44,283 nucleotides of DNA from a virus, in the IMG/VR virus record IMGVR_UViG_3300026533_000007, positions 1 through 44,283 of that record. The stretch is one strand, 5' to 3'. Every line of letters begins with the position of its first letter. Position 1 is the stretch's first letter. The notes beneath the pieces were generated by a model, which worked only from the letters and a program-made list of their open reading frames with translations, did not search any database and was not told the origin of the DNA. The translations under genes were made by a program, and so were the position numbers. Below are positions 3,038 through 34,359 of the stretch, piece after piece.

Positions 3038-3111
3038 CTTACTTACTGTATAATATACTTACTTAAGCATCTTAGATGTGAGAGTTAGGACTAGGATAGG
3101 TAACAAAGAGA
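3038..3111 (+). repeat. 74-bp direct repeat, copy 2, with a TATAAT box
   Basis: This is the second copy of the unit at 2816-2889, 222 bases downstream. TATAAT is at 3049-3054. The sequences outside the 74 bases differ, so the borders of the duplication are sharp. Confidence 0.85.
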
Positions 3112-3162
3112 AACTTAAAGGCACTTAGGGGTTAATCCTTAAGCATACTTTAAGCTTTATTA

Positions 3163-4946: not shown

Positions 4947-4969
4947 TGTAGGAAGTCTACAAAAAATAC
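4947..4969 (+). promoter_or_regulatory. Putative phage RNA polymerase promoter, copy 2
   Basis: This is an exact copy of the 23-bp element described at 2118. It lies in the 213-base gap between 4817 and 5031, so it would drive the operon with the amidoligase genes and the polymerase gene. The bases after the element (CCCTAG) differ most from the other copies. Confidence 0.65.
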
Positions 4970-5030: not shown

Positions 5031-5186
5031 ATGAGTAAGCAAAGACATAATCAAAAGATAGATGCAGAGTTTGTAGGAATGAAAGGTTGGGAGAGACAGT
5101 ATCTTAAGAAGAGTATAAGTTATGGTCACTTAGATGCCCCTAAAGGTACTAAGAAACAACATAATAGATATAAAGAGAGTAAGTAA
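5031..5186 (+). CDS. Small basic protein, 51 residues
   Basis: The ATG follows CCTGAGGAGGTAATAATA, a strong ribosome binding site. The protein is rich in Lys, Arg and His (MSKQRHNQKIDAEFVGMKGW...) with no Cys and no membrane segment, and ends in a Lys-rich tail. The stop codon overlaps the start of the next gene (TAATG), which suggests translational coupling. No family is recognised; a nucleic-acid contact is possible from charge only. Confidence 0.6.
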   Translation: MSKQRHNQKIDAEFVGMKGWERQYLKKSISYGHLDAPKGTKKQHNRYKESK

Positions 5187-5281: not shown

Positions 5282-5533
5282 ATGGTTTCAATAAAGAGAG
5301 CAAAAATAGGAGATAGAGTTAGACTTCTATGTGATATAGATGAAATAGGTATAAAGGGGCAAGTGGTAAAGATAGTAGAGTTTGCAACTGAATATCCAAG
5401 CAATGATGGAGGAGATTGTCCTTTATTCCTTGAGACTGTTAAGGGACATCATTCAAGTAGATATGCACCCTTTAGAAGAAGATATGAATTAATAAACAAC
5501 ACACTTACTGTAGGAGGTAAATTAATATGCTAG
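5282..5533 (+). CDS. Small SH3-like beta protein ending in VGGKLIC
   Basis: The 83-residue protein starts with RAKIGDRVRLLCD, a pattern typical of small SH3/KOW-type beta barrels, then a KGQVVKIVEF strand. AAGGAG precedes the ATG by 8 bases. The last residues VGGKLIC are coded by GTAGGAGGTAAATTAATATGC, so they contain the ribosome binding site of the amidoligase gene that starts 6 bases before this stop. The gene at 9543 has the same plan (KIGDKVRL at the start, VGGKLLE at the end), so these two are probably relatives. Function unknown. Confidence 0.75.
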   Translation: MVSIKRAKIGDRVRLLCDIDEIGIKGQVVKIVEFATEYPSNDGGDCPLFLETVKGHHSSRYAPFRRRYELINNTLTVGGKLIC

Positions 5534-6942
5534 ATTATAAAATAAAGTTAAAGACAGAGAGACAGATAGCTAAGTTATGCTATGAGACAGAAGATGGTAA
5601 ATTAGGAGAAGATGGTATAGCCTATAACTCTGCCCTTATAGCTGAGCATAACTTTAGAGAGAGTATAGTAGTAGGTGTATTACCTTATGGTGAGGCAGGA
5701 GATGAGCAGTATGGTTTCCTTCTTCAGAATTTTGCAGGTGCTAAGCTAGTTGTACACCTTGATTGGATTGGTAAGGTAGAAGGTATCCCTATAGATATGC
5801 AACATAAGTTTAGTGATGTAGAAGTACAAGTAAACTATAAGTATATGATTAACACTACTACTGGTGAGCTTGTTAATATTGATGAGCTCCATAAGTGTAA
5901 TACTTGTGGTGGTATTACTACTCTTAAGCTTGATGAAGACACAATAATGTGTAAGACTTGTCAAGAGGAACTCACAACTAACAATGGCTACTCATATAGA
6001 CCTAAGTATAACTTCTTAGGTACACAGATACCTGCTGATAAGGATACACCAGTATGGTATGGCTTAGAAGTTGAGGTATCAACTGATAGAGGAGAGTTAG
6101 CTAAGTTTATGTACAAGCATAAGAAGAGTGTATTCCTTAAGTCTGATAGTTCTATCTGTGGGAGGGGATACCAGACTGAAATAGTTAGCCACCCTCATAG
6201 TTTCAGTGAACTTATGAAGAAAGGTAGTTGGTTAGAGGGTATGAGTAATGTTCCTGCTGAGGAGAGAAAGGAGAATGGGTGTCATATACATATTAGTCGT
6301 AGTGCCTTTAAAGATGATAAACACTATAGCCTATTCTACTTCCTTATGCATAAGATGGAGGATGTATCTACTATAGTAGGAGGAAGAGCTCTAACTGACT
6401 ACTGCCAGCTACTTCCTAGTGGTAAGATACATAGTAAGAAGAATGGAAGTACATCAGGTAGAGGAAGAAGTCTATATCTTAATGAACAAAACTCTGATAC
6501 TATTGAAGCCCGTTTCTTTAAGGGGACTAACAAGACAGCTAACCTTAAGGCATATGTACAGTACTTAGAGTCTATTATTAAGTATACAGGATACCATAGT
6601 AAAGCAGTAAGTACTAATGGCTGGTTTGCATATATGACTAAAAAACCTAAGAAGTATGAAGAGCTTATAACAGTGCTTGCTGGTGTTTCTGTTGAGAGAA
6701 GCTCAGTTACTTTCAGAGAGCCTATACGGACTACAGTAACACTTAGAGCACTTAATATATTAAGACTAAAGGATGTAGTAGCTATTACTACTAAAGAGGG
6801 AAGAATATATGATAAAGTAGAGGTAAAGTATGCCCATTTTAGTGACAGAGGTATAAAAATTAAATATATAGATGAAGAAGAGTACTCAGGAACAACTTTT
6901 GTAAAGTTTAATACTATTAAAAGCATAGTGGTGGAGTCTTAG
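5527..6942 (+). CDS. Amidoligase (glutamine-synthetase-like COOH-NH2 ligase) with a zinc-ribbon insert
   Basis: The 471-residue protein has the marks of the putative amidoligase family: YGLEVEVS at 178-185, KSDSSI at 205-210, TEIVSHP at 217-223, GCHIHIS at 251-257 and TIEARFFKGT at 325-334. In this family the acidic and His residues bind metal and ATP to join a carboxyl group to an amine. In front is an N-terminal region of about 120 residues, and two CxxC pairs (Cys 124/127 and 142/145) form a zinc ribbon. The last 70 residues look beta-rich. The gene starts inside the end of the upstream gene with AGGAGGTAAATTAAT before ATG. The neighbours are an ATP-grasp ligase and a glutamine amidotransferase/GGCT protein. 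The chemistry is inferred from family; the substrate is unknown. Confidence 0.8.
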   Translation: MLDYKIKLKTERQIAKLCYETEDGKLGEDGIAYNSALIAEHNFRESIVVGVLPYGEAGDEQYGFLLQNFAGAKLVVHLDWIGKVEGIPIDMQHKFSDVEVQVNYKYMINTTTGELVNIDELHKCNTCGGITTLKLDEDTIMCKTCQEELTTNNGYSYRPKYNFLGTQIPADKDTPVWYGLEVEVSTDRGELAKFMYKHKKSVFLKSDSSICGRGYQTEIVSHPHSFSELMKKGSWLEGMSNVPAEERKENGCHIHISRSAFKDDKHYSLFYFLMHKMEDVSTIVGGRALTDYCQLLPSGKIHSKKNGSTSGRGRSLYLNEQNSDTIEARFFKGTNKTANLKAYVQYLESIIKYTGYHSKAVSTNGWFAYMTKKPKKYEELITVLAGVSVERSSVTFREPIRTTVTLRALNILRLKDVVAITTKEGRIYDKVEVKYAHFSDRGIKIKYIDEEEYSGTTFVKFNTIKSIVVES

Positions 6943-6984
6943 ATGTCTACTAAAGAATATCCAATAGGAGGTAAATTATTATGA
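6943..6984 (+). CDS. 13-residue micro-ORF MSTKEYPIGGKLL
   Basis: It starts directly after the amidoligase stop and ends in ATGA overlap with the next gene. Its last codons (GGA GGT AAA TTA TTA) are the ribosome binding site of the ATP-grasp gene and give the same GGKLL ending as the neighbouring small proteins. It may be the leftover of a small gene, or a reinitiation device. No separate ribosome binding site is clear (GGTGGAGTCT). Confidence 0.4.
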   Translation: MSTKEYPIGGKLL

Positions 6985-7709
6985 GTAGAGTAAGATTAAA
7001 TAGATATGGTATATCCAATTCAGGTAAGGCATTAGCTAAGTACCTAGGAATTAAGATGTTGTCAATCACTGGTTCTAGATTTAGAGGTAAAAATTCAGAT
7101 GTAGTTATCAATTGGGGTAATGGTAAAGGTAATATAGGAAATGCTAGACAAATAAACAAGCTACAGAATGTACAGTTGGCTGGTAATAAACTAAGAACCT
7201 TAGAAGCCCTACAAGCTCATAGAGTACCTCATCCATACTTTTCCACCTACAAAGAGAGTTTTGCCCCTGTAGATACCTTAGTATGCCGTACAACACTATA
7301 TGGACACAGTGGACAAGGTATAGAAGTAGGATTAAGAGATGAAGTATGTGAAGCACCACTATATGTAGAATATATTGATAAGGTAGCTGAGTATAGAGCT
7401 ATAGTAGTAGGAGGTAAGGTAGTAGACTTCAAGAAGAAGAAGAGGAGAAATGGCTATGAAAGAGAATATGGAGAGCATATTTGGAACCATAGTAGTGGCT
7501 ATATATTTGCTAGGAATGATATTGTTGTCCCTCTTGGGTGTGGTCAGCTTGGGGTTGATGCTGTTAATGCTTTGGGTCTTGACTTTGGTGCTGTAGATAT
7601 TATAGAAGATAGAGAAGGTAATCTATATGTATTAGAAGTCAATACTGCATTTGGTATAGAGGGCACTACATTAGAACTAGTAGGAGATGCTATAGGAGAT
7701 TTATTATGA
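6981..7709 (+). CDS. ATP-grasp ligase (RimK-like)
   Basis: The 242-residue protein shows the ATP-grasp signature: a flexible loop RTTLYGHSGQGIEV at 103-116, EYRAIVVGGKVVDFKKKKR at 137-155, DFGAVDIIED at 201-210, and YVLEVNTAFGIEG at 216-228 with the Glu-x-Asn metal ligands. Such enzymes activate a carboxyl group as acyl phosphate and join it to an amine or thiol. The ATG follows AGGAGGTAAATTATT and overlaps the micro-ORF at 6943; its stop overlaps the next start. Together with the amidoligase at 5527 and the amidotransferase at 8560 it forms a probable peptide or amide ligase pathway. Substrate unknown. Confidence 0.85.
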   Translation: MSRVRLNRYGISNSGKALAKYLGIKMLSITGSRFRGKNSDVVINWGNGKGNIGNARQINKLQNVQLAGNKLRTLEALQAHRVPHPYFSTYKESFAPVDTLVCRTTLYGHSGQGIEVGLRDEVCEAPLYVEYIDKVAEYRAIVVGGKVVDFKKKKRRNGYEREYGEHIWNHSSGYIFARNDIVVPLGCGQLGVDAVNALGLDFGAVDIIEDREGNLYVLEVNTAFGIEGTTLELVGDAIGDLL

Positions 7710-7927
7710 GAAGAAGAGTAAAGAGTAGAATAGCAATAGATAAGTTATTGATAGAGGGTTATACAGGTGATTGTTACTTCCCTGGTGGTATGTATATCTA
7801 TTGTGGAAAGACTATTGAAGTAGAACCCCAGAAAGGAATAAAGGATAGAGTATATGGACTTGGTTTTGCTTGGATGAATGTGTGGTTAGTATCTGCTGAT
7901 AGTATAACAGGGGGTGAGCTATTATGA
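7706..7927 (+). CDS. Small protein of the amidoligase operon, 73 residues
   Basis: The ATGA start overlaps the stop of the ATP-grasp gene. The protein is basic at the N terminus (MRRRVKSRIAIDK) and beta-rich after it (GMYIYCGKTIEVEP, WMNVWLVSADSI). It ends TGGELL, coded by ACAGGGGGTGAGCTATTA, which is the ribosome binding site for the next gene. It resembles its neighbours in size and end, so it may be a diverged relative of them. Role unknown. Confidence 0.65.
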   Translation: MRRRVKSRIAIDKLLIEGYTGDCYFPGGMYIYCGKTIEVEPQKGIKDRVYGLGFAWMNVWLVSADSITGGELL

Positions 7928-8142
7928 CTTTAAGCTCTAAATATTTAGTAAAGTTTAATGAGGCAGGTGTCAGTAGATATTCATCATATACAAATACAGG
8001 TCTTAGACATAAGATAGAAGTTAGAGATGGTGAAAATGTTATATTATCCTCTAATGGTCTTAGTTACTGGTCTGACTTTGATGACAAATATATGGTACTG
8101 ATAAACAAAGACAACCTAATAGGAGGTAAACTGATATGGTAG
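7924..8142 (+). CDS. Small protein of the amidoligase operon, 72 residues
   Basis: The start overlaps the upstream stop by ATGA. The sequence is beta-rich with many Ser, Tyr and Asp (YLVKFNEAGVSRYSSYTN, KIEVRDGENVILSSNG) and ends LIGGKLIW, the last codons carrying AGGAGGTAAACTG for the next gene. The alternation of short strands and loops suggests a small beta fold as in 5282 and 9543. Role unknown. Confidence 0.65.
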   Translation: MTLSSKYLVKFNEAGVSRYSSYTNTGLRHKIEVRDGENVILSSNGLSYWSDFDDKYMVLINKDNLIGGKLIW

Positions 8143-8324
8143 TAATGGCTAAAAGAAAAGCCTGTGTTGAACACCCAATACACTTTACTTTAGGTAAGAG
8201 ATATAGACTTGATAGTAACAATGAGTATACTACAAATAATGGGCTACTATTAACCTTTAATGGGAAACTTGACAGTCTTATGTTTATGTGTAATGAGAAT
8301 ACAATAGGAGGTAAATTATTATGA
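8136..8324 (+). CDS. Small protein of the amidoligase operon, 62 residues
   Basis: The first ATG is at 8136 and a second in-frame ATG is at 8145; the ribosome binding site AGGAGGTAAACTGAT fits the first one. The middle part HFTLGKRYRLDSNNEY resembles the KIGDRVRL start of 5282 and 9543. It ends TIGGKLL, again coding the ribosome binding site for the next gene. Probably another member of the small-protein series. Role unknown. Confidence 0.6.
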   Translation: MVVMAKRKACVEHPIHFTLGKRYRLDSNNEYTTNNGLLLTFNGKLDSLMFMCNENTIGGKLL

Positions 8325-8548
8325 GTATTACAATGGAAGAGTTCAGACAGGATATGTTAGAAGAAGACTATAGAGATGAGCAGATAGAGATAGCTATGAG
8401 GAATGATGATGACTTCTTTTATGATGCTATTATGGACAAGTTTGAAGATACATTTAGAGAGTTAGAGATTGATGTGGATAATTATTGTATTCATTATGGT
8501 AGAGAACATAGTACGGATGAATGGTTCCAGTTACTATTAGAAAAATAG
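8321..8548 (+). CDS. Very acidic small protein, 75 residues
   Basis: The protein contains about 24 Asp/Glu against about 7 Lys/Arg, giving a net charge near -17, and is predicted helical (EEFRQDMLEEDYRDEQIEIAMRNDDDFFYD). The ATG follows AGGAGGTAAATTATT. Small acidic phage proteins may mimic DNA and block host enzymes, as T7 Ocr does, but no sequence similarity supports that here. Unlike its neighbours it does not end in GGKLL, and 11 bases separate it from the next gene. It could also be an acceptor or carrier for the ligase system; nothing in the sequence decides this. Confidence 0.7.
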   Translation: MSITMEEFRQDMLEEDYRDEQIEIAMRNDDDFFYDAIMDKFEDTFRELEIDVDNYCIHYGREHSTDEWFQLLLEK

Positions 8549-8559
8549 GAGAATAAGAT

Positions 8560-9543
8560 ATGTGTCACATGATAGTAAAACCAGCAGGTAAAAAGTTTAA
8601 TATGGAGTATTTTAAAGCAGCTCAGAAGCATAATGAGGATGGATATTCCTTGACTTGGTATGAAGGAGATAGGGTACAGGTGTTTAAGACATTTGACTTC
8701 TCTAAGTTTATGGGTCTTGCCTCAACTATGAAAGACCACACTTGTATCTCTCACATGAGGTATGCCACTACAGGGGATAAGACATTTAGTAATATACACC
8801 CCTTTGATACCCCAACAGGTGTTATGGCACATAATGGTACAATAGCTAGTTTGGGTTCTACTGTAAAATCTGATAGTCAAGAGATGGCTGAGCTGCTTAG
8901 TGAGTGTGATTATAATTCAGTAGAGGATGTAAAACCTTTAATAGAGAACATAATAGGAAGTACACTTAATAAGTTAGTGTTTATGGAAGATAATGGAAGA
9001 GTTACTATAATTAATGAGCAGTTAGGTATGGTTGAAGATGGTATCTGGTACTCAGGGGACTATCACAAGAAGAATGAGGGATGGTGTAGAGGAGAATGCA
9101 TCCAGAAAAAGGAACCAAAGATGGAGATATTAGAGATGAAGAAGAGCTCCCATTCTGAGAAGACTGAGTTAGTATTTGTATATGGTACACTTAAGAGAGG
9201 CTATGGTAATAATAGACTACTAGAAGATGCTACATACTTAGGCACAGCTAAGACACAAGAGACTTGGGCTATGATAGGTAAAAATGCATCCTTCCCTTAT
9301 CTATTAGAAGAGTCAGAGAAAGGGTTTCATATATCAGGTGAGGTGTATGCAGTAGATGATGGAGAGATTAGTAGGCTAGATAACCTTGAGGGTTTCCCAT
9401 ACCACTACATTAAACAACAGATATTAGTAAACTATACTGATGACCTATCACCTGAATGGGTAACAGTATACACTAAGACACACTTTGATAAAGAGTATAT
9501 AGGTAAACACCAACTAATTGCAGAATGGATAGGAGCAGCATAA
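8560..9543 (+). CDS. Class II glutamine amidotransferase fused to a GGCT/AIG2-like domain
   Basis: The N-terminal half (about 1-180) is an Ntn-type glutaminase: Cys2 directly after the initiator Met, ISHMRYAT at 63-70, NIHPFDTP at 78-85 and AHNGTI at 90-95, which are the usual substrate-binding and oxyanion positions. The C-terminal half (about 205-327) begins VFVYGTLKRG at 206-214 and contains GEVYAVDDG and the conserved acidic residue in LDNLEGFP, marks of gamma-glutamylcyclotransferase-like (AIG2/BtrG-like) proteins. Such a fusion could release ammonia from glutamine and remove or process a gamma-glutamyl group. This fits a pathway with the amidoligase and ATP-grasp genes upstream. The ribosome binding site is AGGAGAATAAGAT. 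Domain calls are firm; pathway is inferred. Confidence 0.85.
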   Translation: MCHMIVKPAGKKFNMEYFKAAQKHNEDGYSLTWYEGDRVQVFKTFDFSKFMGLASTMKDHTCISHMRYATTGDKTFSNIHPFDTPTGVMAHNGTIASLGSTVKSDSQEMAELLSECDYNSVEDVKPLIENIIGSTLNKLVFMEDNGRVTIINEQLGMVEDGIWYSGDYHKKNEGWCRGECIQKKEPKMEILEMKKSSHSEKTELVFVYGTLKRGYGNNRLLEDATYLGTAKTQETWAMIGKNASFPYLLEESEKGFHISGEVYAVDDGEISRLDNLEGFPYHYIKQQILVNYTDDLSPEWVTVYTKTHFDKEYIGKHQLIAEWIGAA

Positions 9544-9779
9544 TGAAAAAACTTAAATTCAAGATAGGGGATAAGGTAAGACTTAATCCCTCTAAGGTAA
9601 CACAAGCTGACTTAGATGAATATTCTAGTGATGGTGAGTTTGATAAAATATATATTATAGATATAAGAGAAAAACATTCTATACTACAGTATCATTTTAT
9701 TGAGAATAATTGGCATAATGGAGAATGGCTGGTTTCAGTCTATATTAAAAATATTGTAGGAGGAAAGCTACTTGAATGA
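9543..9779 (+). CDS. Small SH3-like beta protein ending in VGGKLLE
   Basis: The ATG at 9543 overlaps the previous stop (TAATG) and has TAGGAG seven bases upstream; an in-frame ATG at 9525 is inside the previous gene and less likely. The protein begins MKKLKFKIGDKVRLNPSK, like the gene at 5282, and ends IVGGKLLE. The codons for VGGKL contain AGGAGGAAAG, which is the ribosome binding site of the RNA polymerase gene, so expression of the two is probably coupled. Role unknown. Confidence 0.75.
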   Translation: MKKLKFKIGDKVRLNPSKVTQADLDEYSSDGEFDKIYIIDIREKHSILQYHFIENNWHNGEWLVSVYIKNIVGGKLLE

Positions 9780-12231
9780 CTTATATGAGAGACAGAGGGA
9801 GTTAGAGGAAGAGGCTGTAAATGTATTAGAAAGAAAAGAGTTTAAGAGTTTATCTGATGCTATATCTCAAGGAAGGTTTGATGAAACAAAGTATGGTACA
9901 GCCTTACTTAAAGTGTCCTTTCCTCTAGTAAGAGATAAGATTAGGGAGTACTTAGATACAGAGTTCAAAGGACATACAGGTAAGACACAGAGATATATTA
10001 AATATCTATGTAATGATGATGCAGCTGTTACAGCCTATATTATGTTACAGATGATGGTGAAGAAAATATCACAGCACAGTAATATGATTAAGGTGACAAC
10101 CCTATCTAATATGATAGTAAGGCAGTTAAAAGATATGCAAACCTTTAGAATTGCTGAAGAGAATAACCCTAAGCTTATAGCATACCTAGGTAGTGAGTAT
10201 AGGAGAGCATCTGCTCGGAGAAAGCAAGACTTAATAACTAAACACTTAAAGGAGTTTGCTGTAGAAGGAAATAAGAAGATGGTAGCTGAGGATGTAAAAG
10301 CAGGTGCTACACTTATTGACTTAGTGTTAAAGAGTGGTGGTGGTATAATAACAAAAGAAAGGAAATGGAGAAAAGGTATAGATAGATATGCTACCTTCTA
10401 CTTATCCTTTACTGATGTAGCTTTAGAGTTTCTATCAGATAAATACTATATATCCCCTACCTTAGCCCTTCTGGCACCTATGGTAGTACAACCAACAGAT
10501 TGGACAGCCTTTAAGAAAGGAGGTTATCTAAGTATATCACATCCTTTTATGAAGTTAAAGTTCAGAAAGGAAAGAGAGATAGTCAGTAAGAAAGATTTTA
10601 CTAAGTCTATGAATATTATAAATAAACTACAAAAGACAGGGTGGAGGAATAACAGTAAGGTCATTGAAGTAGTACAGTATATGTATGAGAAGAATATGGT
10701 AGACCCTAGAAGTCCACCAACCTTACCTAGAATATTTGGAGATATACCAACAAGTATACCTACTAAAGTAGAGGACTTGATTGCTGGTTTCGGAAATTAC
10801 CCTGAAAATCCAACAGACAGAGAGAAAAAAGAGTGGGCAGTATGGAATAGGAAGAGAGAAAAGATTAAGATAGGCTTAGATGGGGAGCAAGGTAGAAGAT
10901 TACAGTACCTAATGACAATGGGTGTTGTAAATAAGATGAGGGAGTTTGATAAATTCTACTATGTATATCAATTAGATTACAGGGGTAGGGTGTATCCAGT
11001 GACAGACTTCTATAATCCCCAATCAAAAGGCTATGTTAAGGCTATGCTAGAGTTTGCTGAGGGACACCTGCTAGATGACACAGGTATCTATTGGCTTAAA
11101 ATACATAGTGCTAACACCTATGGGCTAGACAAAGAGTTGTTTCCAGACAGAATTAGATGGGCTACAGACAACAGACAAGCTATGTTAGAAGCCGCTGAAG
11201 ACCCTTTAGGGACAATAGGATACTGGACTAAGGCAGACAGCCCTTATGAGTTCCTAGCTGCTTGTATGGCTCTACAAGACCATGTACAAGGAAGGAAGGT
11301 TCACTTACCTATTCAATTAGATGCAGTGAATTCTGGAGTACAGATGTATAGTGGACTATTAAGAGACAAGGAAGGTGCAAGGAGTACTTGTGTAATAGGA
11401 GATACTAGGTCAGACTTATATGCTGAGGTAGCTGCTGGAGTAGAGGAGAAGCTCTCAGACGGCAAGTACCCACCTATACTGTCCTTCATTGACAAAGAGG
11501 GAGTAGATAGGTCAGTCAGTACTAAGCAAGAGGCAGAGAGTATGATAGGGAACTTCACAAGGAGTATGACTAAGTCTAATGTAATGACAGTACCATATAG
11601 TGTCTCAATGAGAGGTATGAAGATGCAGAATTGGGAAGTAATGGATGATATGAAGCTATCAGGTAAAGCCTTCTGGAAAGGTGATGAATGGGTAGTTAAT
11701 TATCTATGGACTTCTCTAACACATGAGAGTATCTTTGAGATAGTGAAAGGAGCAAGGGCAGGGCAAGAGTACCTGAAAGAGGTAGTAAGACCATTAGAGG
11801 TATCTGCTATGTGGTATACACCTATATATGGTTTACCTGTTATGCAGCCAGCACCTAAGGTAAAAGAAATGAGAGTGAAAACAATACTAGGGACATTGTC
11901 TTTCAACACTATAGTTGATGGTATAAAGAGACAGAAGCAATTAGCAGCTATAGCAGCAAACTTTATCCATAGTATAGATGCAACTATATTGATGTATGTT
12001 GTTGATACAATAGGGGCAGACATTGGTACTATACACGACTGCTTCTTAGTACACCCTAACAAGGGAGAGGAGGTGAGAAACTGTTATAAGAAAGGCTTTG
12101 TAGAGGTTATGCAATCAGACCCATTGAAGATGTTTGCTGAGGAATTAGACCCTGAGAATAAAGTATCTATACCATATGTAGGTGACCTAGATTTAAAGGA
12201 GGTATATGATAGTGAGTATATTATTAGTTAA
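9772..12231 (+). CDS. Single-subunit DNA-directed RNA polymerase (T7 gp1-like)
   Basis: The 819-residue enzyme is a little shorter than T7 RNA polymerase (883). Diagnostic segments are QLDYRGRVYPV near 400, QLDAVNSGVQMYSGLLRD near 515 with the first catalytic Asp, KSNVMTVPYS near 605 with the fingers Lys-Arg region, NFIHSIDATIL near 730 and TIHDCFLV near 755 with the second catalytic Asp. The start is TTG at 9772, eight bases after AGGAGGAAAGC and overlapping the upstream stop; no ATG lies in frame near it. It is the last gene of the early operon, as in T7, and would read the 23-bp elements. The T7 GSCSG segment is AVNSG here, a small change next to the catalytic Asp. Confidence 0.96.
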   Translation: MNDLYERQRELEEEAVNVLERKEFKSLSDAISQGRFDETKYGTALLKVSFPLVRDKIREYLDTEFKGHTGKTQRYIKYLCNDDAAVTAYIMLQMMVKKISQHSNMIKVTTLSNMIVRQLKDMQTFRIAEENNPKLIAYLGSEYRRASARRKQDLITKHLKEFAVEGNKKMVAEDVKAGATLIDLVLKSGGGIITKERKWRKGIDRYATFYLSFTDVALEFLSDKYYISPTLALLAPMVVQPTDWTAFKKGGYLSISHPFMKLKFRKEREIVSKKDFTKSMNIINKLQKTGWRNNSKVIEVVQYMYEKNMVDPRSPPTLPRIFGDIPTSIPTKVEDLIAGFGNYPENPTDREKKEWAVWNRKREKIKIGLDGEQGRRLQYLMTMGVVNKMREFDKFYYVYQLDYRGRVYPVTDFYNPQSKGYVKAMLEFAEGHLLDDTGIYWLKIHSANTYGLDKELFPDRIRWATDNRQAMLEAAEDPLGTIGYWTKADSPYEFLAACMALQDHVQGRKVHLPIQLDAVNSGVQMYSGLLRDKEGARSTCVIGDTRSDLYAEVAAGVEEKLSDGKYPPILSFIDKEGVDRSVSTKQEAESMIGNFTRSMTKSNVMTVPYSVSMRGMKMQNWEVMDDMKLSGKAFWKGDEWVVNYLWTSLTHESIFEIVKGARAGQEYLKEVVRPLEVSAMWYTPIYGLPVMQPAPKVKEMRVKTILGTLSFNTIVDGIKRQKQLAAIAANFIHSIDATILMYVVDTIGADIGTIHDCFLVHPNKGEEVRNCYKKGFVEVMQSDPLKMFAEELDPENKVSIPYVGDLDLKEVYDSEYIIS

Positions 12232-12254
12232 TGTAGGAAGTCTACAAAAAATAC
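12232..12254 (+). promoter_or_regulatory. Putative phage RNA polymerase promoter, copy 3
   Basis: The exact 23-bp element (see 2118) begins at the last bases of the polymerase stop codon region and ends 30 bases before the next start. It is followed by CGAGAAAG. It would start the DNA-metabolism operon. Confidence 0.7.
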
Positions 12255-12284: not shown

Positions 12285-12509
12285 ATGGCAGTAGAAGAAG
12301 AACAGTTCTATGAAGAGGTAAAGTATCAGAGAGATGATGTACTACTATTAGTAGAAAGTATAGAAGATAGTATGGTTATTACACAAGCTAACTTAGAACT
12401 AGAAGATATATATAATTTAACAGTATATTTACTAGGAGAGACAGCAAGTATTACAGGACAGGCATATAACAGTGTGCTAGAAGATTTTAAAGAAAAAGAA
12501 GGAGAGTAA
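12285..12509 (+). CDS. Small acidic protein after the RNA polymerase, 74 residues
   Basis: The ATG is preceded by ATAAGGAGAGTACTAC. The protein is acidic and helical (MAVEEEQFYEEVKYQRDDV, LELEDIYNLTVYLLGETASITGQAYNSVLEDF) with no Cys or membrane segment. It is the first gene after promoter copy 3 and lies 5 bases before the ssDNA-binding gene. T7 has several small genes between gp1 and gp2.5, including the host RNA polymerase inhibitor gp2, but no similarity is visible. Confidence 0.7.
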   Translation: MAVEEEQFYEEVKYQRDDVLLLVESIEDSMVITQANLELEDIYNLTVYLLGETASITGQAYNSVLEDFKEKEGE

Positions 12510-22687: not shown

Positions 22688-23642
22688 AACATTTAAACCA
22701 ATGAAGTATCCACAAGCCTTTGAGCACTGGGAAACACATGATAAGATGGTATGGCACTATGATGAAGTTCCTTTAGCAGATGATGTAGCTGACTTTGCTA
22801 GGGCTGATGATAAGGAGAGAGAGTTTATTACACAAGTAATGAGACTCTTTACTCAGAATGATGTAGAGGTAGGACATGGATATGATGTACTACTAAGAAT
22901 CTTTAAACCTACTGAAGTAAGTATGATGCTTAGAGGCAATGCAGATAGAGAAAGTACACATATAGCAGCCTATTCCTTATTCACAGAGACATTAGGTTTT
23001 CCTGATGAATTCTATAGTGAGTACTTAGAGGATGAACAGATGGCTGATAAGATTAACTTTGTTGTAGAGTCACAAGTTAAGAAACTAGAGGACTATGAAG
23101 AGTTCTCAGAGAAACAATACATACAAGACATAATGTATATGTTAGCTGTATATGCTACACTCACAGAAGGTGTTAGTCTCTTTGCTCAATTTGCTATGTT
23201 ACTTAAGTACCAGACTATTAATAAGTACAAAGGATTAGGTACAATAGTAGAGTGGTCTATTAAGGATGAAGAGCAGCATGTTGTATCTAATAGTTGGCTA
23301 TTCAGAACCTTTGTAGAAGAGAACCAAGAACACTTTGATGATGTAATAAAGAAGAGAATATACAATGCAACTAGAGAGTTAGTACAGAAGGAGTGTGATT
23401 TAGTAGTAGAATTATCACCGCCTCATATGGATGTATCATTAGTACAGGAGTATATTATGTATATAGCAGACCAAAGACTTAAGCTAATAGGCTTTAAATC
23501 TAACTGGGGTATTAAAGAGAATCCTTTACCATTTATGGAAGAACTTAATGGTACAGTATTAGCTAGTATGTTTGAAGGAAAAGTAACAGAATATTCTAAA
23601 GGCAGTCTGACAGGTAGTTGGGAAGAAGTTAGAGCTCTGTAG
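22665..23642 (+). CDS. nrdB: Ribonucleotide reductase small subunit, tyrosyl-radical type
   Basis: The 325-residue protein shows E96, H99 and Y103 in RESTHIAAY, matching the Glu, His and radical Tyr of class I beta subunits, and E168 (TEGVSLF), E202 and H205 (DEEQHVV) for the second iron. So it should make the radical used by NrdA. The last residues WEEVRAL are followed at once by putative promoter copy 4, which overlaps the final codons. The ATG has AAGGAACTTAAGC before it. Confidence 0.95.
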   Translation: MSLIKASRTFKPMKYPQAFEHWETHDKMVWHYDEVPLADDVADFARADDKEREFITQVMRLFTQNDVEVGHGYDVLLRIFKPTEVSMMLRGNADRESTHIAAYSLFTETLGFPDEFYSEYLEDEQMADKINFVVESQVKKLEDYEEFSEKQYIQDIMYMLAVYATLTEGVSLFAQFAMLLKYQTINKYKGLGTIVEWSIKDEEQHVVSNSWLFRTFVEENQEHFDDVIKKRIYNATRELVQKECDLVVELSPPHMDVSLVQEYIMYIADQRLKLIGFKSNWGIKENPLPFMEELNGTVLASMFEGKVTEYSKGSLTGSWEEVRAL

Positions 23643-23660
23643 GAAGTCTACAAAAAATAC
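23638..23660 (+). promoter_or_regulatory. Putative phage RNA polymerase promoter, copy 4
   Basis: The exact 23-bp element overlaps the end of nrdB and is followed by AGAAAGGG. It lies 118 bases before the first gene of the head block, so it would start late transcription. Confidence 0.7.
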
Positions 23661-30393: not shown

Positions 30394-32672
30394 TGCCATC
30401 ACAACTAGTAAATTTTACACTTAGCAATTTAAGCTCTGGTGTTACACAACAATATCAAGAGGGAAGATTTGATAGTCAAGTTAATGATATGATTAATTGT
30501 ATCCCAAACTTGACTAGAGGAGTACTCAGAAGAAACCCTATTAACACTAGGGGAATATTACCAGGACTTCCTGCTAACCTCACTGATGCTTATGTGTATA
30601 CATATGATAGAGGTACAGGAGATGAGCAGTACATGGTTACTGTACCTGGTGATGGTAAGATATATGTACATAATGTCAATACAGGTATACTAAAATATAC
30701 ATCACCTACTAGTACTTATCTATCTCTAAGTATAGGACAAATAGCTAGAGAGACATTTAAAGCTATGACTATTGGTGATACTACTTTTATAGTTAATATA
30801 TCTAAGACACCTAAGTTTACTACAGCTACTACACCTACAACAGGTTTTAGTGATATGGCTTTCTATTGGATTAAGAAGACAGCCAGTGTAGTAACAGAAC
30901 AGAAGCAGACACAGACAGACCCTATCACTACAGGTAGCTACTTAAAAGGGTATACATATGACTTAAATGGTGAACAGCTAGTAGCTCATATAAATACACT
31001 ACCAGGAGTAACAGAAGTACAATTAAATACAGGACCAGATATAGCTACATACTTTGCAAGTAAAGCCTTAGCTGTAGTAGATAAATCATCTAGGTCTATA
31101 GCTTATAAGACAGGCTTCACAGGGTCAGATTGGACTTGGAGTGATAGCTTTGGAGATGAAGCTTCTCTGGGTGTATGGGAAACTATAGACTCAGCATCTA
31201 AACTTCCTGTAAACTTACCATCAGATTTAAATAACTTTGTTGTACAAGTAACTAGTGGTACTTCAGATGCCTTTGATGATTACTACCTACAATATGACTA
31301 CCCTAATAAGAGTTGGAAAGAAGTAACAAAACCTGGTGTACTCTTTGAGCTTGATGGCTCTTCTATGCCACATGCACTTTATAGATTAGCAAGTGGTAAC
31401 TTTACATTTAATACTTTTCAAGAAGTAGCAGCAGATGGATTATCTCTTACAGGTACATCAGCTTGGGGAGATAGAGTAGTAGGAGGCTCAGACTCTATAG
31501 AGGACCCTAGTTTCTTACTTAGTCCTATTATAGATATATTCTTCTTTAGAAATAGATTAGGGTTCCTTACTAAGGATAATATTATACTATCCCAGACAGG
31601 AGCTTATGGAGACTTCTTCTTACAGACTATACAAGATACATTAGATGATGACCCTATTGACTTAGCAGTAGCCTCTACAGATGTTACAGTACTTAGACAT
31701 GCAGTACCAACAGCAGGACAGCTAGTTCTATTCTCTGATGATACACAGTTTATACTTAGAGCAGATAATGGACCACTAACAGTCAATACAGCAGAGATAA
31801 CAGCACTATCTAATTATACATATGGTAAAGATGCAGATGCTAAAGCAGTAGGTAACAAGATATACTTCTCTTCTCAAGCAGGAGGGTTTAGTCAGATGTA
31901 TGCATATAATGTGACAGATGGAGGACAACAACTAACAGAAGCAGTAAATTTATCATTACACATACCTACATATATGAGTAATACTATTAATAAGATAGTA
32001 GGACATAGTGTATTAGGCTTTACTTTCTTAAAGGATAGTACTAACCCTAAAGAACTTACTGTACTGTCTAGTGTTAATAAACAAAATGATGAGTTACAGA
32101 GAGCATTTCATAAGTGGGAATTCTCTAAGAATATAGTAGATACTAGTATTATTAACAATGACCTATATCTCTTATTCTCAGATGGTGACTTATGTTATAT
32201 GTCTTTAGAGGTACCAGGAGATATAGATACTATAGTATATAATGATACACACTCAGATGGTATAGTAGATTACTTATCAGGTATAAAGTTCTCTGAGTTC
32301 TTTGTAAGAGATGGTAGTGGTAAAGGAACTACTAGAGGAAGATTACAGTTAAGAACATTACTATATACTATTAATGATGATAGTAAGTATCAGACAGAAC
32401 TTATTAGTACTACTAGGACAACCTCAACAGAAGGCTTCTATGGTCCTATATGGGATGACACTGATGTATGGGATGATACACTTAGATGGTTAGATGTAGA
32501 CCCTCTATACACTAGAGTATATATAGATGATAGTAAAGTTACAGTAATGAGTAATAGTAAAGAAGTTGAGATACTTTTTAGAAATAATAGTACACTAGCT
32601 ACTAAAGGCTTTGAGTTATCTACAGTTAATGCAGAGGCTTTCTTTAGTCAGAGAAGTACAAGAACAAAATAA
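30393..32672 (+). CDS. Tail tubular protein B, nozzle (T7 gp12-like)
   Basis: The 759-residue protein (T7 794) starts MPSQLVNFTLSNLSSGVTQQYQ, followed by a beta-propeller-rich body with SFLLSPIIDIFFFRNRLGFLTKDNIILSQTGAYGDFF near 370-406 and LVLFSDDTQFILRADNGPLTVNTAEI near 444-469, which are typical nozzle motifs. It builds the tip of the tail tube and holds the fibres. Overlapping start with gp11 suggests coupling. Confidence 0.95.
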   Translation: MPSQLVNFTLSNLSSGVTQQYQEGRFDSQVNDMINCIPNLTRGVLRRNPINTRGILPGLPANLTDAYVYTYDRGTGDEQYMVTVPGDGKIYVHNVNTGILKYTSPTSTYLSLSIGQIARETFKAMTIGDTTFIVNISKTPKFTTATTPTTGFSDMAFYWIKKTASVVTEQKQTQTDPITTGSYLKGYTYDLNGEQLVAHINTLPGVTEVQLNTGPDIATYFASKALAVVDKSSRSIAYKTGFTGSDWTWSDSFGDEASLGVWETIDSASKLPVNLPSDLNNFVVQVTSGTSDAFDDYYLQYDYPNKSWKEVTKPGVLFELDGSSMPHALYRLASGNFTFNTFQEVAADGLSLTGTSAWGDRVVGGSDSIEDPSFLLSPIIDIFFFRNRLGFLTKDNIILSQTGAYGDFFLQTIQDTLDDDPIDLAVASTDVTVLRHAVPTAGQLVLFSDDTQFILRADNGPLTVNTAEITALSNYTYGKDADAKAVGNKIYFSSQAGGFSQMYAYNVTDGGQQLTEAVNLSLHIPTYMSNTINKIVGHSVLGFTFLKDSTNPKELTVLSSVNKQNDELQRAFHKWEFSKNIVDTSIINNDLYLLFSDGDLCYMSLEVPGDIDTIVYNDTHSDGIVDYLSGIKFSEFFVRDGSGKGTTRGRLQLRTLLYTINDDSKYQTELISTTRTTSTEGFYGPIWDDTDVWDDTLRWLDVDPLYTRVYIDDSKVTVMSNSKEVEILFRNNSTLATKGFELSTVNAEAFFSQRSTRTK

Positions 32673-32685
32673 AGGAGATATTAAT

Positions 32686-34359
32686 TTGATATCTAAAAAA
32701 TTATACACAGGAGATGGAGCATCAGCTAGGTTCTTATCTGACTTCATAATCAGAAGCAGCCAGTTTGCTAGACCTTATGTATACATCTTTGATAATACTC
32801 TCAACCCAGATGGGACTGAGGATGTATTAGAGGATGGCACAACAGACCAAGCTAACCACCTATACCCTACTAACTTATGGAAGAGAGGAACAAATGTAGC
32901 TAATTCAGATGACTTAGTGTTTGTGGATAAGTGGCAGGTAGTAGATAATAGTATTCTATTCTTTACACCACCTCCAATGTCTACAAGTATATGGCTAGAG
33001 GTAGCAACTACAGCAGAAGAGTTTGGAGATACATTAGTAGCTCCTTCAGTTAAGAGAGCAGAGGATGCAGCAGCAGCTTCACTAGCTAGTGCTAATGACT
33101 CAGCAGCCTCAGCAGCTAATAGTAATACTTCAGCAACAGAGTCAGCTACAAGTGCAGCAGCAGCTTTAGTAAGTGAAGGTAATGCAGCTACTTCAGCTAC
33201 TAATGCAAATACAAGTGCTATACAGGCTAATACCTCAGCCACTAATGCATCTTCTTCAGAGATTAATGCTAGTACAAGTGCAGCAGCAGCTTTAGTATCA
33301 GAGAATAACTCAAGTACTTCAGCAACTAACTCAGCAGCTAGTGCAGCAGCAGCTTTAGTAAGTGAAGGTAATGCAGCTACTTCAGCAACAGAGTCAGCTA
33401 CAAGTGCAGCAGCAGCTTTAGTATCAGAGAACAATAGTGCTACTTCAGCAGCAGAGGCAGCACAGTCAGCTATAGATACTATAGATTACGGTAGAAAAAA
33501 CCTACTCATCAATGGTGGGTTTGATATATGGCAGAGAGGTGATAATTTTTTAAATGTCAAAACTACATACACTTCAGATAGATGGTATTTCAATACTGGA
33601 ACAATTGGTGATGCTAGCGTAACAAAAGCATTATCAAGTGGTCTTGATGGATATGGCTTATCATTTAATAAATTAGCATCAACACCATATTGTTTTGTTA
33701 CAAACAGTATAGAGAGTACACCATCATTAAAGCTTAAAACTGTTACAGTATCAGCAGAAGTTTATGCCACAAGTGGTGGAATTGATAAAGTTGAATTCGG
33801 TGTAATTGGAATAGACCAAAAAGATGTTAACCCATCTTCAGTTCCAACATTTATTTCAACAGAAACTTTTAACCTTGTTGCTGATACAAATAACATATTA
33901 ACTAAAACAATTGTTTTACCTGATTATGCAGATGACAATTATACTTTTGCAGTTAAATTCAATACCGGTGATTCTATAACGACACAAATAGGTACAATAT
34001 ACATTAGAAAAGTCCAACTAGAACAAGGCTCAGTAGCTACACCTTTTGAGGTACTACCTATAGGTGAGACTGATATGTTGTGTAAGAGATATTATCAGAT
34101 TGCTAATTTTAGATTTAGAGGATATGGATTTTCTGCGGGAAGATCTGAACAGTCTATTTTCATTAATGAAATGAGAGTAACCCCTTCTATTTCAGATATA
34201 GTAATAAACTCTAGAACCGGTTTTTGGGATACACTAAATGCTACTGTAGTAAGTCTTACTAATAATTTATTAGCAACTTCAACAGATGCCTCGAATACTA
34301 TTGTAGATTCAGATTCAATCTATGGCGGTATCGTTAAAGCAGATGCAGAAATATATTAA
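32686..34359 (+). CDS. Tail fibre with T7 gp17-type N-terminus and exchanged C-terminal domain, TTG start
   Basis: The start is TTG at 32686, with AAGGAG ten bases upstream; ATG-like codons farther upstream fall inside the nozzle gene. Residues 1 to about 125 are the anchor (KLYTGDGASARFLSDFIIR, VYIFDNTL, SIWLEVATTAEEFGDTL) that joins the fibre to the tail. Residues about 126-265 are Ala/Ser/Thr repeats (TSAAAALVSE four times), a likely trimeric coiled shaft. From NLLINGGFDIWQRGD (about 270) to the end (557) is a beta-rich receptor-binding part with CpG and a GATC otherwise rare in the genome. It likely fixes the host range. Confidence 0.92.
   Translation: MISKKLYTGDGASARFLSDFIIRSSQFARPYVYIFDNTLNPDGTEDVLEDGTTDQANHLYPTNLWKRGTNVANSDDLVFVDKWQVVDNSILFFTPPPMSTSIWLEVATTAEEFGDTLVAPSVKRAEDAAAASLASANDSAASAANSNTSATESATSAAAALVSEGNAATSATNANTSAIQANTSATNASSSEINASTSAAAALVSENNSSTSATNSAASAAAALVSEGNAATSATESATSAAAALVSENNSATSAAEAAQSAIDTIDYGRKNLLINGGFDIWQRGDNFLNVKTTYTSDRWYFNTGTIGDASVTKALSSGLDGYGLSFNKLASTPYCFVTNSIESTPSLKLKTVTVSAEVYATSGGIDKVEFGVIGIDQKDVNPSSVPTFISTETFNLVADTNNILTKTIVLPDYADDNYTFAVKFNTGDSITTQIGTIYIRKVQLEQGSVATPFEVLPIGETDMLCKRYYQIANFRFRGYGFSAGRSEQSIFINEMRVTPSISDIVINSRTGFWDTLNATVVSLTNNLLATSTDASNTIVDSDSIYGGIVKADAEIY
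33061..33475 (+). repeat. Imperfect tandem repeats in the fibre shaft
   Basis: AGTGCAGCAGCAGCTTTAGTA recurs four times (near 33151, 33277, 33340 and 33401) inside about 60-bp units that code TSAAAALVSE and nearby TSATESATS. Repeats in a fibre shaft can change copy number and so fibre length. Confidence 0.85.

Follow-up and report, generated by a model that had tools for sequence, protein, structure and literature searches.

A condensed cassette of amidoligase, ATP-grasp ligase and fused amidotransferase-cyclotransferase genes in a T7-type podophage, with a possible role in gamma-glutamyl amide chemistry

Three amide-bond enzymes in one overlapping gene group

The virus record IMGVR_UViG_3300026533_000007, analysed here over its whole length of 44,283 bases (the window), comes from a marine-type, bacteria-infecting phage. 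Ahead of its RNA polymerase gene lies a cassette of three enzyme genes, all on the + strand and at the positions given in a preliminary description of the sequence: an amidoligase (5527-6942), an ATP-grasp ligase (6981-7709), and a class II glutamine amidotransferase (GAT-II) fused to a GGACT domain (8560-9543). Across the interval 5282-9779 the junctions between open reading frames (ORFs) are mostly overlaps of 4-19 nucleotides (nt), the exceptions being a 38-nt gap before the ATP-grasp gene and an 11-nt gap before the fused gene; since most junctions overlap, translational coupling is likely. These overlaps, with the polymerase starting at 9772, bear out the earlier picture of an overlapping operon immediately before the phage polymerase. 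The three enzymes themselves were also correctly named, as judged by profile matches and by catalytic residues that are intact and invariant. Small ORFs are present as described, although they number six (5282, 7706, 7924, 8136, 8321 and 9525; Table 1) rather than four or five.

The amidoligase alone scores below the cut-off against PF12224 (E = 0.017); this profile is matched by 13 of the 14 members of its family, at best with 2.8e-9. Residues E181, E183, D207, E218, H253, H255, R287, E327 and R329 are invariant in all 14 members, so that the active-site acids and the HxH and ExR motifs are present, and most of the active-site residues are also invariant in a wider set (n = 8). The zinc ribbon is of the CxxC...CxxC form. 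An AlphaFold2 model has a predicted local distance difference test score (pLDDT) of ~75-95 in the core, and its top Foldseek matches mostly have the glutamine synthetase (GS) fold (Dop, YbdK, glutamine synthetase and gamma-glutamyl-methylamide synthetase), at weak E-values of ~0.02-0.08. A divergent amidoligase family, A6 (L014 1973-3607, L047 1482-3116 and relatives), adjoins fused GAT-II-GGACT genes and is not recognised by Pfam. When compared with the window family by hhalign it gives E = 2.5e-6 with the catalytic motifs in register, and at the level of profile comparison A6 is linked to Amidoligase_2.

By homology, the product of the second gene is a RimK-type ATP-grasp ligase. It matches phrog_2599 at 1.7e-59 and PF08443 at 1.1e-4 (above cut-off), and in the alignment to RimK structures (5zct/4iwx; 1e-6) the ExN metal motif is in register; D206, E219 and N221, which form the D...ExN metal site, are invariant in six phage ATP-grasp sequences. 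The fused protein matches PF13230 (GAT-II, 2.3e-8) and PF06094 (GGACT, 1.6e-17), and its model (pLDDT 84) retrieves the GGACT structures 3juc/3jud at 1e-9 and the GlmS glutaminase at 1e-5 with Foldseek, the closest structural match of the C-terminal domain being gamma-glutamylamine cyclotransferase. Among NCBIfam models the GAT-II domain scores best with EgtC (8.7e-6), PurF being nearly equal (9.1e-6). The glutamine site of GAT-II (C2, H65, R67, A69, T70, G72, N92-G93 and D105) is invariant in 26 fused relatives, as are the Y208-G-T-L-K212 motif and the catalytic E277 of GGACT. Homology establishes that this one polypeptide holds two folds of the kind that cleave gamma-glutamyl amides, and that the cassette as a whole combines two such folds with two ATP-dependent amide-forming folds. 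The peptide-like-bond pathway of the preliminary description stands as enzyme chemistry at this level, and the structure predictions do not contradict the placing of the ATP and metal residues in the folds expected for them.

Table 1. Positions of the cassette genes, their neighbours and the promoter-like repeat in the window
Feature	Position	Strand	Remarks
22-nt phage-promoter-like repeat TGTAGGAAGTCTACAAAAAATA	2118-2139, 4947-4968, 12232-12253, 23638-23659	+ (4947-4968)	All four copies identical; 0 expected from shuffling
Small basic protein	5031..5186	+	Sister counterpart L002 5150, 48% identity over 44 amino acids
Small protein, overlaps amidoligase start	5282..5533	+	33% identity to L002 5361 in sister; no family match
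Amidoligase_2-type carboxylate-amine ligase with predicted GS fold, 471 amino acids	5527..6942	+	Zinc ribbon 124-145 and GS-like core ~177-385 (residue numbers)
RimK-type ATP-grasp amidoligase, 242 amino acids	6981..7709	+	phrog_2599, PF08443, RimK 5zct/4iwx; sister 73% identical
Small protein	7706..7927	+	No clear one-to-one sister counterpart
Small protein	7924..8142	+	No clear one-to-one sister counterpart
Small protein	8136..8324	+	Sister counterpart L002 9006, 42% over 53 amino acids
Acidic 75-amino-acid protein, immediately 5' of amidotransferase	8321..8548	+	Sister L002 9203, 51% over 70 amino acids; no match in the other loci fetched
Class II glutamine amidotransferase (N-terminal nucleophile type, Cys2, residues ~1-165) fused to GGACT (~203-308), 327 amino acids	8560..9543	+	
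Small protein	9525..9779	+	Sister counterpart L002 10416, 41% over 74 amino acids
T7-like single-subunit RNA polymerase	9772..12231	+	PF00940 9.4e-69

Linkage and architecture of the cassette across phages

Single-sequence scans of viral contigs gave no relatives of the fused protein and only that of one sister phage for the amidoligase; alignment queries retrieved more, and the linkage sets used here are the closest relatives so obtained from IMG/VR and named phages, as non-redundant loci. In the sister phage (L011, IMGVR_UViG_3300026484_000025) the three enzyme genes are all present, arranged as in the window and followed by the same RNA polymerase, so that the co-occurrence in relatives that had been named as a test of the idea is found. 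From 80 amidotransferase loci and the named phages, 41 non-redundant loci have at least 1.5 kb upstream of the amidotransferase, and 40 of them hold an amidoligase. Matches to amidoligase account for 42 of 107 ORFs of at least 200 amino acids within 2.5 kb of the amidotransferase, and for none of the 190 ORFs of this size at greater distance (Fisher p = 4e-22). When the search is anchored the other way, an amidotransferase is present in 31/31 and 37/37 loci of two amidoligase families and in 45/45 ATP-grasp-anchored loci, the weakest E-value across all of these being 5e-14, and each of the 45 also has an amidoligase.

The grouping of these enzymes is beyond chance. Its constant core is the amidoligase and GAT-II, whose start and stop codons overlap by ~4 nt in many loci; the ATP-grasp ligase, found in 2 of 26 records of the amidotransferase set, and GGACT are add-ons. 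In three loci (L014, L039 and L043) the pair lies opposite in strand to its large neighbours, which suggests a self-contained unit that moves as such. A scan of bacterial genomes (Solimonas, Methylomonas and others) yielded GAT-II only as a gene standing alone; no amidoligase match lies close to these genes, which are a different subfamily. Among named phages the closest RNA polymerase is that of Roseobacter phage CRP-143 (43.5% identity), in whose early region neither the annotation nor the profiles show an amidoligase, ATP-grasp or amidotransferase; the cassette is therefore accessory.

The cassettes can be sorted by composition. Type I (phiEco32/Zobellviridae) comprises a PF14395 ligase, Amidoligase_2, GAT-II, ATP-grasp and often a separate GGCT. 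Type II is minimal, with overlapping amidoligase and GAT-II genes and neither ATP-grasp nor fusion (L049, L061 and others). Type III pairs an amidoligase, in many cases of the A6 family, with a fused GAT-II-GGACT and has no ATP-grasp; the opposite-strand cassettes of L014, L039 and L043 are of this type, and at L046, L047, L055, L066 and L068 it belongs to phages with a T7-like polymerase, and a tyrosine-recombinase-like integrase, identified from its translation, adjoins the fused cassette, suggesting that temperate phages carry the cassette too. Type IV, that of the window and its sister, combines the zinc-ribbon amidoligase with ATP-grasp and a fused GAT-II-GGACT, lacks PF14395 and occurs in phages with a T7 polymerase. 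PF14395 has no match in either of these two phages and is present in 31 of the 39 other ATP-grasp records, and the sister is the only one of 40 ATP-grasp records with a T7-like RNA polymerase. Since its composition unites features of both, type IV looks like a hybrid of types I and III.

Comparison with described phages places the window in the same terms. The cassette of the RIO-1, phiEco32, PA11, CW02 and LUZ24 type likewise groups Amidoligase_2, ATP-grasp, GAT-II and mostly GGCT ahead of the replication genes and has small ORFs interspersed among the enzyme genes, and all four of these domains (amidoligase, ATP-grasp, GAT-II and GGCT) lie inside 5527-9543 of the window; the window differs in having no PF14395, in the fusion of its amidotransferase to GGACT and in its T7-like RNA polymerase. 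A related cassette is also carried by Vibrio phage 275E43-1, and the earlier remark that such groups are known from other phages holds for this phage as for phiEco32, PA11 and CW02 (PMC5498523). The OM43 phages MEP401/MEP402 (PMC10580990) share the amidoligase and GAT-II, there as overlapping genes, but in the stretch of MEP402 examined no ATP-grasp or GGACT was seen, unlike in the window. Fused cassettes of IMG/VR phages and of Phage C75C1 have the same GAT-II-GGACT fusion with invariant catalytic residues, whereas their amidoligases are of families A6 and A7 and ATP-grasp is nearly always absent. Type IV is thus a rearranged, condensed and fused form of a known phage cassette, situated beside a T7-like RNA polymerase. 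What is new is the fused, condensed cassette without PF14395, together with an amidoligase family in related fused cassettes that Pfam does not recognise.

The phage enzyme cassette was reportedly first noticed by Iyer in 2009, and Hardies in 2013 is said, in papers that cite that work, to treat an amidoligase or 'peptidoglycan modification' cassette; we found no product for it in the literature. The condensed version in T7-like phages and the two-gene core make the question addressable with few proteins instead of seven, and if the product were a new modification of an envelope component, protein or metabolite, this would explain the presence of the gene group in phages of many hosts.

Possible function of the cassette

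We suggest, with a probability of roughly 0.4, that the cassette encodes a set of accessory phage enzymes, some forming and others cleaving gamma-glutamyl-type amide (isopeptide) bonds. The GS-fold ligase would activate a carboxylate with ATP and join it to an amine, and the ATP-grasp ligase would extend this product, or a related one, by an amino acid. The gamma-glutamyl group would be stripped by the fused protein, either by hydrolysis at Cys2 of GAT-II, as in EgtC, or at the GGACT site by release as 5-oxoproline, so that the group could act as a put-on/take-off carrier or protecting group; the two cleaving folds may be fused because both act on the same type of bond. The target, which we hold weakly, would be a host cell-envelope precursor or a small amine metabolite, changed before and during takeover, for instance to keep competing phages out. 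Ergothioneine (EgtA/EgtC) and butirosin (BtrG) synthesis provide precedents for putting on and taking off a gamma-glutamyl group. The EgtA/EgtC pair resembles the cassette in combining a GS-like gamma-glutamyl-amide ligase with a GAT-II-fold hydrolase, to which the weak EgtC match of the window adds; the window differs in that no EgtB/EgtD/EgtE-like gene was seen among the proteins examined. That YbdK and gamma-glutamyl-methylamide synthetase are among the weak matches of the amidoligase model is consistent with gamma-glutamyl chemistry.

Several points tell against the proposal. Foldseek lends the amidoligase little support, as no match reaches E < 0.001, and the EgtC-like and PurF/GlmS-like scores of GAT-II are close, so that this domain may supply ammonia rather than remove gamma-glutamyl. 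Many cassettes have no GGACT or ATP-grasp, which makes those extra steps optional. The loci are closest relatives rather than a random sample of phages, so the counts give no frequency over all phages, and we found no published assay of these phage enzymes. A bolder form of the proposal, which we regard as somewhat doubtful, is that the amidoligase and GAT-II pair constitutes a new two-protein system for putting on and taking off gamma-glutamyl, in which the amidoligases fall into no fewer than three diverged families, one of them Pfam-unrecognised. It would be widespread in environmental phages, would transiently modify a host molecule to aid infection or exclude competitors, and would have been joined in this T7-like lineage to a RimK-type ligase that comes from a different kind of cassette.

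The ammonia that GAT-II may release leads to the main alternative, a rather unlikely one, in which a glutamine-fuelled GS-fold ligase would amidate or cross-link peptidoglycan stem peptides of the host wall and block superinfection. Class II amidotransferase enzymes LtsA/AsnB1 amidate meso-diaminopimelate, and the translational coupling of ligase and amidotransferase suits a two-subunit amidotransferase; GS-fold ligases, however, usually take free ammonium. GGACT moreover acts on gamma-glutamyl groups whose alpha-amine is free, and the D-Glu of stem peptides has no such amine, so an intact stem peptide is an unlikely substrate for the GGACT step and the fused domain is left unexplained. Peptidoglycan modification is the published guess for the cassette in RIO-1-like podoviruses and phiM6 (PMC5498523, PMC6256558, PMC10580990), but no experimental test of such action was found in these three papers, nor did we find published muropeptide data.

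The ATP-grasp ligase, being nearest to RimK, and the presence of Dop among the weak amidoligase-model matches would fit a RimK-like or Pup-ligase-like addition of amino acids to a host or phage protein that the fused protein undoes. We consider this improbable, as no substrate with a conserved tail is at hand (the GG[KR]L tails described below coincide with Shine-Dalgarno/start cassettes) and the ATP-grasp gene is in so few records (2/26) of the amidotransferase set. The ATP-grasp protein also weakly matches the MvdC/MvdD maturases and microviridin-type ligases, which would suit a graspetide-like ribosomal peptide synthesis with the small proteins as precursors; the RimK family model outscores the maturase models, however, and the small proteins are replaced from one phage to the other and have no common core beyond a tail encoded by the Shine-Dalgarno sequence, which makes such a synthesis hardly credible. 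Salvage of nitrogen, glutathione or gamma-glutamyl peptides as auxiliary metabolism during infection is quite improbable: the GGACT and GAT-II folds are known from glutathione and glutamine metabolism, and the phage has ribonucleotide reductase, ThyX and MazG-like genes for the use of host resources, yet two ATP-consuming ligases would be unexpected and the constant part of the cassette is the pair of ligase and amidotransferase. Some phage base modifications use amide-forming enzymes, but hypermodification of DNA or nucleotides with an amino acid or amide is very improbable here, as the window proteins examined include no dUMP/dCMP hydroxymethylase, base kinase or 7-deazaguanine enzyme and thymidylate would be made by an ordinary ThyX.

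Expression signals, small genes and the rest of the genome

The 22-nt repeats of Table 1 look like candidate promoters of the phage's own T7-like RNA polymerase, placed at likely starts of transcription units. A diverged form occurs in the sister at 2661, 5087 and 13115, positions equivalent to those in the window: after terL, before the cassette and after the RNA polymerase gene. Early expression of the cassette, judged by position alone, is plausible; as the repeat at 4947-4968 lies directly upstream of it, the word 'early' may cover just a part of its expression. A scan for sigma-70 promoters gave no excess over shuffles. To the left of the early genes, a 74-nt direct repeat (2816-2889 and 3038-3111, 99% identical) with TATAAT-like boxes inside may hold host-type early promoters. 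A different repeat pair lies in a similar place in the sister, at 3136 and 3335.

Five of the six small proteins of the interval, and nine in the sister, end in GG[KR]L (in one case GGEL). These tails are typically encoded by TAGGAGGTAAATTATTATG, which is a strong Shine-Dalgarno sequence whose distance from the start codon that follows is fixed; a non-coding copy precedes the ATP-grasp gene (6960-6983). Near-identical cassettes of this kind are found in the window at 5506-5529, 6960-6983, 8115-8138 and 8300-8323, and in L011 at 5605, 7409, 7630, 8567 and 8979; they could serve as recombination points for the turnover of small genes. While the enzymes are kept, sister counterparts exist for the genes at 8321, 9525, 8136, 5282 and 5031 and no clear one-to-one counterpart for those at 7706 and 7924. 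Among the loci fetched, the small-protein families tested were confined to these two phages, except for a weak match of the gene at 12285 in CRP-143. A role for the small proteins as substrates, which the preliminary description had raised, or as Pup-like tags ending in Gly-Gly was set aside, because the tail coincides with the Shine-Dalgarno and start sequence; the want of clear sister matches for 7706 and 7924 also speaks against substrates. Differences among the coding copies are mostly synonymous, so that some protein-level constraint on the tail is possible and leaves a small doubt about this rejection.

Elsewhere the window encodes a T7-type terminase, SSB, primase-helicase, DNA polymerase, HNH-type endonucleases and MazG-like, ThyX and ribonucleotide reductase proteins, some of them named by eye from their translations, and this gene content marks a podophage of T7 type. 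A near-identity DNA search of the phage collection found no relative of the window. Rfam and tRNA scans of the window gave no matches, and a defence-system library gave only weak matches at chance level. Within the ORF at 32611-34359, five repeats follow one another at 63-nt spacing (33126-33470).

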